From contig CP128386.1 of the NCBI GenBank assembly GCA_030345135.1, forward strand, positions 6,215,327 to 6,279,326: a DNA stretch of 64,000 nucleotides. Reading direction: 5' to 3'. The stretch comes from Chitinophagaceae bacterium DXS (GTDB lineage Bacteria; Bacteroidota; Bacteroidia; Chitinophagales; Chitinophagaceae). Of this stretch, positions 35,516 through 39,349 are shown in pieces. Made by a program: the position numbers and the translations under genes. How positions within the stretch are numbered: the stretch's first letter is position 1; the number at the start of each line of letters is the position of its first letter. The notes beneath the pieces are model-generated. The model did not search any database and was not told the DNA's origin. It saw only the letters and a program-made list of their open reading frames with translations.

Positions 35516-35530
35516 CCGGTGCGACGCGTA

Positions 35531-35553
35531 GAGACGTTGCACTGCAACGTCTC
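35531..35553. repeat. REP palindrome family A, copy 1
   Basis: GAGACGTTGC - ACT - GCAACGTCTC, 16 bp after the EEP gene stop, in the convergent gap before the antiporter gene. It lacks part of the outer arm found in the longest copy. Confidence 0.85.
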
Positions 35554-35595
35554 CAACGTGATCATGTTTTATATATTTGTTTCTGATGATACGAC

Positions 35596-35636
35596 GAGAC
35601 GTTGCATTGCGCGGAGACGTTGCATTGCAACGTCTC
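35596..35636. repeat. REP palindrome family A, copy 2 plus a half copy
   Basis: A half palindrome GAGACGTTGCATTGC (35596-35610) is followed directly by a full one (35614-35636). The pair abuts the stop codon of the antiporter gene. Confidence 0.85.
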
Positions 35637-37210
35637 TATCTGTATTTTAATTTTAATTGTTCCTCCTCCATATCCAGCAACATCAAATATTTCCTGATCA
35701 CGGCATCATCAATCACAATATCCTCGTTCCATTTGTGCAGCCAATCACGTTGTTTTTCTATCAATTTAAGAGACGCATTTTTAAAATCATCTTGTAATTG
35801 GTGGTCCTTGTTCATATCCTCGCCCTGTTTCCATTTCGCTTCAAGGAAATGTAATACAGGATTGGCATTGATCTCTTCTGAATATTCATGTTGCAAAAAA
35901 CGCCTGCTTTTTTCAGCCAGCCTGCGTGCAACCTCCGCCTCCTGCTCTTCCTCGGATAAAAAATGATCCGGGTCTTCCATTTTCAAAAGGCGTATTAATT
36001 TGGGCAAGGTAAGTCCTTGCACGACCAATGTCAGTAATATTACAATAAAGGTGATAAACAATATCAGATTCCTCTGCGGAAAGGGAGCGCTGTTATTTGT
36101 AACAATTGGAATTGATAAGGCCGCAGCGAGAGAAACCACGCCACGCATGCCAGCCCACCCAAAAATAAGGGGTGCCTTTAGTCCCGGCCTGGGATCTGCT
36201 GTTGTAATAAAGCGACTAATAAAAACGGTGAAGAAAGATGCCCCGATTGCACATAAGATCCTCGCGACCATTAAAATGGCTGTAATTACAACACCGTAAC
36301 CGATAGCTGCTCTGAGACTAATTCCGTCAAGTCCTTTTATAATAATAGGTAGTTCCAGCCCGATTAATATAAAAACCAGTCCGTTTAGAATAAATCCAAG
36401 CGCGGACCAGACACTTGCTCCTTTTAGCCTGCTGCTATGGCTCAAAAAAAGATGCGACTTTGCTGATAAAAATAACCCGCCACTTACTACAGCCAGGACA
36501 CCTGATACATGAATCATTTCAGCCGTTATATACATAACGTAAGGTGTAATGATAGTTAGCGCAATGTCCGTGTTATCATCGGTTGGCAGTAATTTGTGTA
36601 TATAGAAGAATAAGTAGCCGATGGCAATTCCAATTGCGATTCCGGCAATAATTACCCAAAAGAAACTTACAACAGCTTCGTGAAATACAAAGCGTCCTGT
36701 GCTTACTGCAATCAGAGCAAAGCGAAAAACAATAAGGCTGGATGCGTCGTTCAACAAGCTTTCACCTTCAATGATAGAAGCCATGCGACGTGGAACCTTT
36801 ACGTATTTTAAAATTGCGGCTGCACTAACGGCATCCGGCGGCGATACAATTCCTCCCAACAAAAATCCCAATGCCAGTGTAAAGCCTGGAATAATGCTGC
36901 TTGCAACCAGGGCAACAACCAACGAGGTGACCAACACAATGAGAAATGCAAAACTTCCTATTACTCTCCTCCAGCGCCATAGTTCTTTCCATGATGTGTA
37001 CCACGCAGCTTCGTACAGCAATGGTGGTAGAAAGATCACAAATATTAATTCGGGATCAATACTAAAGCTGGGAAAGTAAGGTACAAAGCTTACAAGCAGG
37101 CCGCATACAATAAGCATAATCGGGTAGGCAATTCTTATTTTGTTTGCCAGCATGATCAGTAATAATGTAAGACCTATAATGCAGATATATTGTAATGCAG
37201 TAATTATCAT
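35636..37210 (-). CDS. Na+/H+ antiporter, CPA1 (NhaP-like) family
   Basis: 524 residues: about 12 hydrophobic segments over residues 1-400, then a charged cytosolic tail of ~120. Signature blocks: PPLLYEAAWYTSWKELWRW, GGIVSPPDAVSAAAILKYVKVPRR (ion-binding Asp near 127), EGESLLNDASSLIVFRFAL (Asp near 155) and WAGMRGVVSLAAALSIP. This is the pattern of bacterial CPA1 Na+/H+ exchangers in the inner membrane, exchanging Na+ (or K+) for H+ for pH and salt balance. Single gene converging on the EEP gene; REP palindromes sit at its 3' edge. Confidence 0.93.
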   Translation of the reverse strand: MIITALQYICIIGLTLLLIMLANKIRIAYPIMLIVCGLLVSFVPYFPSFSIDPELIFVIFLPPLLYEAAWYTSWKELWRWRRVIGSFAFLIVLVTSLVVALVASSIIPGFTLALGFLLGGIVSPPDAVSAAAILKYVKVPRRMASIIEGESLLNDASSLIVFRFALIAVSTGRFVFHEAVVSFFWVIIAGIAIGIAIGYLFFYIHKLLPTDDNTDIALTIITPYVMYITAEMIHVSGVLAVVSGGLFLSAKSHLFLSHSSRLKGASVWSALGFILNGLVFILIGLELPIIIKGLDGISLRAAIGYGVVITAILMVARILCAIGASFFTVFISRFITTADPRPGLKAPLIFGWAGMRGVVSLAAALSIPIVTNNSAPFPQRNLILFITFIVILLTLVVQGLTLPKLIRLLKMEDPDHFLSEEEQEAEVARRLAEKSRRFLQHEYSEEINANPVLHFLEAKWKQGEDMNKDHQLQDDFKNASLKLIEKQRDWLHKWNEDIVIDDAVIRKYLMLLDMEEEQLKLKYR

Positions 37211-37397: not shown

Positions 37398-37434
37398 ATC
37401 CGTAGAGACGTTGCATTGCAACGTCTCTACGGAT
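37398..37434. repeat. REP palindrome family A, longest copy
   Basis: 18-bp perfect arms ATCCGTAGAGACGTTGCA and its complement around one T. It lies 51 bp upstream of the RAYT start codon, in the position where RAYT genes typically carry a cognate REP. Confidence 0.92.
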
Positions 37435-37485: not shown

Positions 37486-38088
37486 ATGAACCCTAAATTC
37501 CGCGGCAAATACCGCATCGAATCTGCACGATTAAAAGGCTGGGATTACCGCAACGCCGGCGCTTATTTCATTACCATCTGCACAAAAAAACGCATGCATT
37601 ATTTTGGAGCCATTGTAGATGGTGTAATGCAATTAAACGATATCGGACGAGCCGCCGAAAAATATTGGGCAGAAATTCCGGATCATTTTTCGGTTGTTGC
37701 ATTGGGGAATTTTGTGGTGATGCCGAATCATGTGCATGGGGTGTTGATTATTCGGGAATGTGGCGCGGATGTAGAGACGTTGCATTGCAACGTCTCTACG
37801 CATTGCAACGTCTCCACGATGTCCACATCAAATAATATCAATGACAAAAACCACCCCATGTCCCAAATATCCCCGTTATCCGGATCCATTTCAACCATCA
37901 TTCGTTCCTATAAATCAATTGTTTCAAAGATGGTTCGTCAACAATTTGATGCGTCATTTGAATGGCAGGCACGTTTTCACGATCACATCATTCGCGATCA
38001 ACGCGCCTATGAGGCAATAGAATATTATATTGAAAATAATCCGGCCAATTGGCAGCGCGACACATTAAATAGCGATTGTAAAAAGTAG
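37486..38088 (+). CDS. REP-associated tyrosine transposase (RAYT), with a REP inside the gene
   Basis: 200 residues of the Y1 (HUH-type) transposase family: NAGAYFITICTKKRMHYFG, MPNHVHGVLII (HUH-like His pair, about 84-94), SGSISTIIRSYKSIVSKMV, FHDHIIRD and YYIENNPANW (Tyr region near the end). RAYTs cut and rejoin single-stranded REP hairpins. Five full and two half copies of one palindrome family lie within about 2 kb on either side. One copy and a half copy (37771-37817) form part of the gene itself and are translated as VETLHCNVST in the variable linker between the HUH motif and the C-terminal helices. Confidence 0.93.
   Translation: MNPKFRGKYRIESARLKGWDYRNAGAYFITICTKKRMHYFGAIVDGVMQLNDIGRAAEKYWAEIPDHFSVVALGNFVVMPNHVHGVLIIRECGADVETLHCNVSTHCNVSTMSTSNNINDKNHPMSQISPLSGSISTIIRSYKSIVSKMVRQQFDASFEWQARFHDHIIRDQRAYEAIEYYIENNPANWQRDTLNSDCKK
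37771..37817. repeat. REP palindrome family A inside the RAYT gene
   Basis: A full palindrome (37771-37799, arms GTAGAGACGTTGCA) followed by a half copy (37800-37817), wholly within coding sequence. Frame GTA-GAG-ACG keeps the gene open; one other frame would hit TAG at once. Confidence 0.92.
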
Positions 38089-38909: not shown

Positions 38910-38977
38910 CACAATTCAGTTTAAAATGAAATATGAATGTAGCAAAAGTTTTTGTTTTGCATGTAAAGAGTGAAATT

Positions 38978-39349
38978 ATGATCGTAGTAATTTTTGAAGT
39001 TGAGCCTGCAAAAGTAAAGTGGGACGAATACATAAATATGGCAGCCGAGCTTTACGATGAGTTAACAGAAGTTGAAGGATTCATTTCTGTTGAAAGATTC
39101 AAAAGCATAAGGGATGAGACAAAGCTTCTTTCACTTTCTTTTTGGAAAGATGAAGAAAGTGTAGCCAACTGGCGAAATGCAATTCGTCATCGTGCTGCAC
39201 AGGAAAAAGGAAGAGTATCTGTTTTTCGAAACTACCGTTTGCGTGTCGCAAATGTGATACGGGATTATGGTATGGAAGAACGAGATGGAGTAGAGACATT
39301 GCATTGCAACGTCTCTGCGAGCGATACCACACTATTTCATCATAAATAA
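38978..39349 (+). CDS. Antibiotic-biosynthesis-monooxygenase (ABM) domain protein with REP-encoded tail
   Basis: 123 residues from the ATG at 38978. Residues 1-100 form a dimeric ferredoxin-like ABM domain (IVVIFEVEPAKVKWDEY, EGFISVERFKS, LLSLSFWKDEESVANWRN, HRAAQEKGR). Such proteins are small haem-degrading or quinone-type monooxygenases, or stress proteins of unknown substrate. The last ~20 residues start VETLHCNVS and come from a family A REP palindrome at 39290-39318, so the natural C-terminus has been replaced or extended. It is 11 bp upstream of the ACT gene and divergent from the ArsR regulator. Confidence 0.85.
   Translation: MIVVIFEVEPAKVKWDEYINMAAELYDELTEVEGFISVERFKSIRDETKLLSLSFWKDEESVANWRNAIRHRAAQEKGRVSVFRNYRLRVANVIRDYGMEERDGVETLHCNVSASDTTLFHHK
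39290..39318. repeat. REP palindrome family A at the 3' end of the ABM gene
   Basis: GTAGAGACATTGCA / TGCAACGTCTCTGC, with two arm differences from the consensus. It is translated in the same frame as the copy in the RAYT gene. Confidence 0.88.

Follow-up and report, generated by a model that had tools for sequence, protein, structure and literature searches.

A REP palindrome within the coding sequence of a group-4 RAYT and its association with helix alphaC

The RAYT gene and the REPs around it

The window, by which is meant the whole stretch of 64,000 nucleotides analysed here, carries a gene for a REP-associated tyrosine transposase (RAYT), with REP elements before, within and behind it (Table 1). 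The product is a Y1_Tnp protein according to Pfam (26.7 bits against a cut-off of 23), aligns with E. coli RayT at an hhalign probability of 96.8, and as a structural model retrieves in Foldseek the IS608 and ISDra2 transposases and the E. coli TnpAREP-REP structure 4er8 (rank 4, E 5e-6). In the AlphaFold2 model (mean pLDDT 83.2) the Y1 core is ordered and the linker disordered, the variable insert lying between the strand of residues 82-89, on the HUH side, and the helix of residues 135-153, alphaC. The IS200/IS605 TnpA enzymes, IS608 and ISDra2 among them, share this fold by Foldseek and read DNA hairpins, but their hairpins lie at the element ends and not in a coding linker (PMC6006769).

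Table 1. Features of the RAYT locus and the neighbouring REPs, in window coordinates
Feature	Position	Strand	Basis
Flanking REP of the window family, 3 mismatches	35528..35556	+	sequence match
Flanking REP, 3 mismatches, giving the TAG stop of the antiporter-like ORF 35636-37210 (-)	35611..35639	+	sequence match
Upstream flanking REP, identical to the in-gene REP	37402..37430	+	sequence match
RAYT (REP-associated tyrosine transposase), 200 aa, subclass 2.4 / group 4 type	37486..38088	+	Y1_Tnp, hhalign, Foldseek
HUH motif PNHVH (MPNHVH), residues 80-84	37723..37737	+	sequence; H82 and H84 invariant in the relatives' alignment
Disordered linker holding the REP, residues about 90-132	37753..37881	+	AF2 pLDDT block means 45-60, residues 91-130
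In-gene REP, double foot, perfect 14-nt arms, read VETLHCNVST	37771..37799	+	sequence
Half REP unit (right arm), read HCNVST	37800..37817	+	sequence
Helix alphaC, putative REP-recognition helix, residues 135-153	37888..37944	+	AF2 model and class-specific residues
Y motif YIENNP (Y181)	38026..38043	+	sequence; conserved alignment columns
Downstream REP, 2 mismatches, near the 3' end of the ABM-domain ORF 38933-39349 (+)	39290..39318	+	sequence match

The motif set NH[IFV]H, WQ and YIxNNP of TnpAREP subclass 2.4, found in Bacteroidetes, appears here as MPNHVH, W160Q161 and YIENNP, together with the variable beta3-alphaC insert, the double-foot REPs flanking the gene and the REP inside it that leaves the frame unbroken (PMC6006769). 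Judged by these traits of the sequence, the gene is a member of TnpAREP subclass 2.4, or RAYT group 4, with a putative REP-specific ssDNA nuclease activity. In-gene double-foot REPs have been described for this subclass by Quentin et al. 2018 (PMC6006769), and therefore the bare observation is not new; intragenic REPs are also known in other genes (PMC3733652). What is added to the published account of subclass 2.4 is the maintenance of the REP at the DNA level, its occurrence as a sole copy, and the joint change of REP class and alphaC, none of which was found in the passages and abstracts searched, mainly of openly available articles.

The in-gene REP is the 29-mer GTAGAGACGTTGCATTGCAACGTCTCTAC, of the form GTAG...CTAC with a 1-nt loop between its 14-nt arms, and agrees with the definition of a REP as a GTAG foot on a palindrome of 20-40 nt. 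Behind it stands the half unit GCATTGCAACGTCTCCAC, whose partner in the RNA fold is the left arm of the complete unit; the mRNA stretch around the REP folds strongly (z -4.08). The two are read as VETLHCNVST-HCNVST between the HUH motif and W160. The original prediction, that one and a half REP units are translated within the RAYT linker, is thus confirmed, the 29-mer matching the upstream REP exactly (chance expectation in the window 0.00) and the ORF being open throughout. The accompanying interpretation held in part, as to the translated REP and the stop-free frames; binding, autoregulation or cutting of this RNA or DNA by the gene's product is hypothetical. The interpretation contained neither the prior publication nor the link with alphaC. 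A chance palindrome at this position is rejected, given that expectation and the synonymous shuffles of the relatives' linkers, which yield a mean of 1.0 in 95.

Across the genome (7.29 Mb, one contig), the REP family occupies 23 places with up to two mismatches, compared with 0 for a reversed control pattern. It is a low-copy family when set against the copy number usual for REPs, more than 100 per genome (PMC2817692). Ten of these places overlap no ORF of at least 70 aa, four give an ORF its stop codon, six touch only ORFs of 70-100 aa, one lies near the 3' end of the ABM-domain ORF, one in the RAYT, and one falls within the 5' portion of an ORF of 1014 aa, the initial ~90 residues of which consist of a REP array, with no Pfam domain before residue 189. 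By this tally the RAYT copy is the only REP of the family that sits mid-way in a credible protein. Past its Pfam domain, the ABM-domain ORF ends in a C-terminal tail that the downstream REP encodes, read as VETLHCNVS in the same frame. Besides the REP at 35611-35639, a REP foot supplies stop codons at genome places 2118624, 2496477 and 259801 (four of the 23 family places), and by a REP of another family at genome place 6852361. Around 1646-1920 of locus L148 (genome 3278145-3278414), a GSDH/PKD/cytochrome c gene is directly preceded by a REP array, through which its frame stays open far in the 5' direction and gains a long run of residues encoded by REPs.

The linker of a second close RAYT of the same genome (L009, 43% identity) holds two palindromes that belong to another family, found at six genomic places, three of them at the L009 gene. 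Each of the two close RAYTs in this genome has its own REP type. The same is reported for the coevolving RAYTs and REPs of Stenotrophomonas and others, in which each RAYT goes with its own REP type and the trees agree; there, however, the REPs are described as flanking the gene, and in-gene copies or a code at the level of the helix do not form part of that account (PMC2817692).

Palindrome and peptide among the relatives

Two sets of relatives were compared. The first comprised 111 loci (L008, L009 and L028-L136), of which 95 were parsed and 16 dropped, and the second 109 loci (L149-L258 without L150), with 94 parsed and 15 dropped; the dropped rows were mostly frame-broken or cut genes in both. 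The complete window protein served as query for loci L028-L056. Six peptide patterns, all outside the REP, were used to seek L057-L136, which were then confirmed with the whole protein. The second set was found with a profile of REP-bearing RAYTs.

An exact palindrome with an arm of at least 10 nt occurred in 62 of the 95 first-set linkers, and one with an arm of at least 9 nt in 66 of 95 linkers of the first set and 59 of 94 of the second, prevalences that are valid for near relatives because of the way both sets were searched. When synonymous codons were shuffled within each gene, arms of at least 10 nt were left in a mean of 1.0 and a maximum of 4 of the 95 linkers (60 rounds), and stretches of core DNA from further upstream in the same genes, matched in length, gave 1/95. 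Two of the seven other Y1_Tnp genes of the window genome could be parsed, too small a number to carry weight, and neither of these two had an arm above 6 nt. Linkers lacking the REP, which the original prediction had proposed to look for by aligning homologues, do exist: 29 of the 95 in the first set are without an exact arm of at least 9 nt, and the in-gene REP is therefore not essential.

The peptides read from the REPs are diverse (VETLHCNVST, VETRLIASL, VETPKLGVST, VETGHALSL and RDAMHCVST among them) while the palindrome persists. A linker peptide conserved in non-palindromic codons, the outcome that had been named as speaking against the idea, was thus not what the relatives displayed. 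The expectation that the frame containing TAG would be excluded, so that only certain insertions are tolerated, was likewise upheld, since the 90 double-foot REPs in the parsed linkers of both sets are read in the VET frame 73 times, in the RD frame 17 times and in the TAG frame never. Once identical REPs were collapsed, 33 distinct in-gene REPs remained, with a nearly constant GTAG foot and variable stem positions 5-14. These comparisons of coding sequences show the palindrome to be kept at the DNA level and not as a peptide. In L116, L109, L079 and L087 the linker contains REP or half-REP units repeated in tandem and in frame, which in L116 amount to eleven 16-aa repeats.

REP class and helix alphaC

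Six REP classes were distinguished among 54 first-set genes, alphaC being taken as the 27 residues before W160. The REP class of the nearest neighbour agreed in 51.0 of 54 cases when neighbours were defined by alphaC, in 30.5 by the N-terminal half with the HUH motif, and in 24.8 by the part after W160. With dereplicated genes the respective values were 35.0, 18.5 and 11.2 of 39, and shuffling the labels on alphaC reduced the first to a mean of 7.2 (maximum 15.6). Genes with similar outer parts and different REP classes formed 96 pairs, which are not independent, with mean identities of.79 (N-half),.42 (alphaC) and.78 (C-terminal part). Ten disjoint class-switching pairs gave means of.82,.43 and.83, with alphaC the least similar part in 10/10, as against.86,.86 and.85 in 13 disjoint pairs of the same class, of which three had alphaC lowest. 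At the nucleotide level, in blocks of 15 codons, the three pairs inspected were.69-.97 identical before the linker,.22-.67 between the linker and about W160, and.71-.93 from there on, one last block at.56 apart. In a tree of 94 rows and 120 kept columns, many forks of which are poorly settled, REP class switches between sisters such as L069 and L116.

In 42 dereplicated genes the ten columns with the most excess mutual information on REP class all lie in alphaC. Residues 141, 148, 144, 140, 145 and 137 rank highest, with a spacing that fits one face of a helix, and in the window RAYT the class-specific residues are T137, R140, S141, S144, I145 and K148. The code observed pairs RS[YF]KS with GTTGCA, G[SA][YF]KS with AAGGCA or AGGGCA, RWYKG with GCGATT, NQ[YF]KR with GCCCAA, RG[YF]KS with GYRATG, and GA[LY][KQ]TT with AGGTCG. 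That 53 of the 54 genes fit this rule is no test of it, because both the six classes and the rule were derived from the first set. The single miss, L106, arose because its REP fell outside the fixed window: it lies after alphaC, between the helix and the W and followed by a threonine/glycine repeat, and its class agrees with the helix all the same (RGFKS with GCGATG).

The alignments of the first set thus show REP class to follow alphaC and not the remainder of the protein, REP class and alphaC changing together in otherwise similar genes, and suggest that alphaC reads the REP. In E. coli TnpAREP (4ER8) the DNA-binding helix alpha3 contacts the REP through K82, and the GTAG is contacted too (PMC8266576). 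With hhalign, alphaC aligns to the alpha3 stretch of that protein, at E. coli segment 73-88, which includes K82, the residue register being uncertain. The E. coli REP is bulged and has GTAG at one foot (PMC8266576), in contrast to the double-foot REPs considered here.

The helix rule was written down before the second set was parsed. A rule motif was present in 48 of its 94 parsed genes. In 35 of the 48 it was accompanied by a palindrome, which belonged to the predicted class in 12 cases, to another named class in none, and to none of the six classes in 23; five further genes had a named class and lacked a rule motif. A nearest-class score, devised after the data had been seen, agreed for 23.8 of 35 against a shuffled mean of 8.3 and maximum of 17 (1000 rounds). 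Four of the 23 loci outside the six classes (L210, L234, L236 and L243), in which RSFKS goes with a REP of ACGGC type, clearly contradict the rule. Mantel correlations for the N-half, alphaC and C-terminal part were.21,.66 and.17 in the first set,.33,.30 and.14 in the second, where alphaC is accordingly not superior to the N-half, and.35,.41 and.21 in both sets after dereplication. On this evidence the code is best for near relatives and weaker further out, and its blind support is less clean.

REPs outside the gene bear on the same relation. For 25 of 62 in-gene REPs a match of at least 85% lies outside the frame within 1.4 kb, where comparison with other loci would predict 2.27; the other 37 have none in that range. 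A flanking double-foot REP was present at 28 of 124 rule-bearing loci, with 15 in the predicted class, none in another named class and 13 in none of the six; where the gene had a flanking REP and no in-gene one, the predicted class was matched at three of six loci.

Sole copies and a candidate address cassette

Whole genomes were scanned with the family patterns, allowing up to two mismatches, for 52 loci in 50 genomes (L065 and L110 share one, as do L069 and L099). At 17 of the 52 loci every place found lies inside the RAYT gene itself (L057, L058, L060, L062, L064, L119, L076, L086, L087, L089, L098, L123, L124, L125, L073, L078 and L103); the fractions by class pattern are 6/10, 0/7, 8/11, 3/14 and 0/10. 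This is a strict count. The script, working with stop-to-stop frames, gave 21/52, from which L101 was left out for a second copy outside the matched gene, and L099, L100 and L033 for a second place in an open frame or a pattern not exactly theirs. According to the records, L060, L103 and L124 are isolates and the others metagenome-assembled. The gene of L103, from Gelidibacter japonicus, is frame-broken: the RAYT frame ends within its own in-gene REP (L103:3295-3322), the centre of which differs from the usual GATTAATC.

Agreement at fourfold sites, which for the REP is partly by construction because the same-class sets were picked by their shared REP (close relatives being least affected), was 33/36 in the REP against 34/109 in the core for four diverged GCCCAA sole-copy genes, 47/55 against 99/279 for six GTTGCA genes, and 36/36 against 115/156 for four close relatives. 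In the diverged genes the REP is thus nearly identical though synonymous core sites are near chance, and in the codon lists the variable in-REP fourfold site GTC/GTA pairs across the stem with GAG/GAT. The sole-copy cases indicate that a REP can persist without any dispersed family.

The reading that we consider probable, from sequence comparison, is that the RAYT carries its cognate REP in its coding sequence, and that REP and recognition helix form a linked specificity cassette, by virtue of which the enzyme carries its own address. The enzyme would bind the in-gene hairpin when its own gene is single-stranded, in replication or transcription, using the GTAG foot and the outer face of alphaC. 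The block of REP and helix, with the REP just upstream of alphaC, would be a self-contained address cassette, and upon movement of the gene or block to a new genome, or its recombination into another RAYT, target and reader would stay side by side. In a genome lacking any further copy, the gene would itself be the sole remaining cognate site and the RAYT would act on its own gene; since sole copies lack other cognate sites, the palindrome is probably kept for such an action, be it control of expression or mobility and recombination of the cassette. The in-gene palindrome could also seed new REP families. The agreement between REP and alphaC is by itself no proof of a cassette, because the same would result if a RAYT spread only its own REP and the linker tolerated it. 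The REP of L106 beyond the helix, which fits insertion too, and the metagenomic origin of most sole-copy genomes also count against it, as do the blind-set loci outside the six classes, the Mantel correlation of alphaC in that set, the linkers that have no REP, the frame-broken L103 and the selection of same-class sets by a shared REP.

The main rival is a tolerant linker that receives copies from the REP family of its own gene. REPs spread by RAYTs insert widely, and the disordered linker of the nearby own gene would tolerate in-frame copies, kept by chance; the agreement of REP and helix would follow because a RAYT moves only its cognate REP. We think this unlikely, in spite of the disorder of the linker in the AF2 model, the cognate flanking REPs in excess of expectation, the arrays of units, the REP-less linkers, the position of the L106 REP on the other side of the helix, and the suggestion by the authors of PMC6006769 that the in-gene REP has little impact on protein activity. 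For 17 of the 52 loci no other copy was found from which to insert, and the near identity of in-REP fourfold sites beside a diverged core also argues against it, though an ancestral REP family preceding gene transfer is possible. The sole-copy cases make a simple by-product of an active REP family less likely as well. Control through an mRNA hairpin, the line taken by the original prediction, which would slow translation at the domain boundary or be bound by the RAYT, is improbable. The strong folding of the RNA around the REP and a stem upheld by paired changes are in its favour, but G.U pairs should then be tolerated, and among 462 stem cells of the 33 distinct REPs the 29 that are not Watson-Crick comprise, in small numbers, 4 G.T, 10 A.C and 15 others; the GTAG feet and the match with alphaC would also be left without explanation by a hairpin alone. 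A need for the encoded peptide in the protein is very improbable. In its favour VET....(V)ST/SL recurs, because feet and frame are shared; against it, the classes differ in their core residues, the REPs are read in two frames, 29 of 95 linkers have no such peptide, and conservation at the peptide level is largely refuted by the synonymous shuffle (62/95 against a mean of 1.0) and the differing peptides.

Beyond the linked cassette of the single gene, group-4 RAYTs in general may possess an exchangeable cassette of in-gene REP, spacer and alphaC, with a few helix-face residues (137, 140, 141, 144, 145 and 148 in the window RAYT) as a readable REP code, which would be self-targeting where it is the sole copy and could found a new REP family after transfer; we put this forward tentatively, as plausible though somewhat short of probable. 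If true, RAYT genes exchange the cassette by recombination, target and reader thereby switching in one step, and in a sizeable share of genomes the only cognate target of the RAYT is its own gene. A switch of specificity by the swap of one short block is suggested. With the target printed beside the reader helix, such genes would be self-labelled enzyme-target pairs, predicting which residues to mutate. As RAYT-REP pairs are a widespread bacterial repeat system, this bears on how enzyme specificity and repeats change in step.

A related RAYT outside the Bacteroidota, in a metagenome-assembled genome of Deltaproteobacteria/Myxococcota (L097), has two in-gene palindromes, and its genome holds 36 places of GTAGAGAC..GTCTCTAC.
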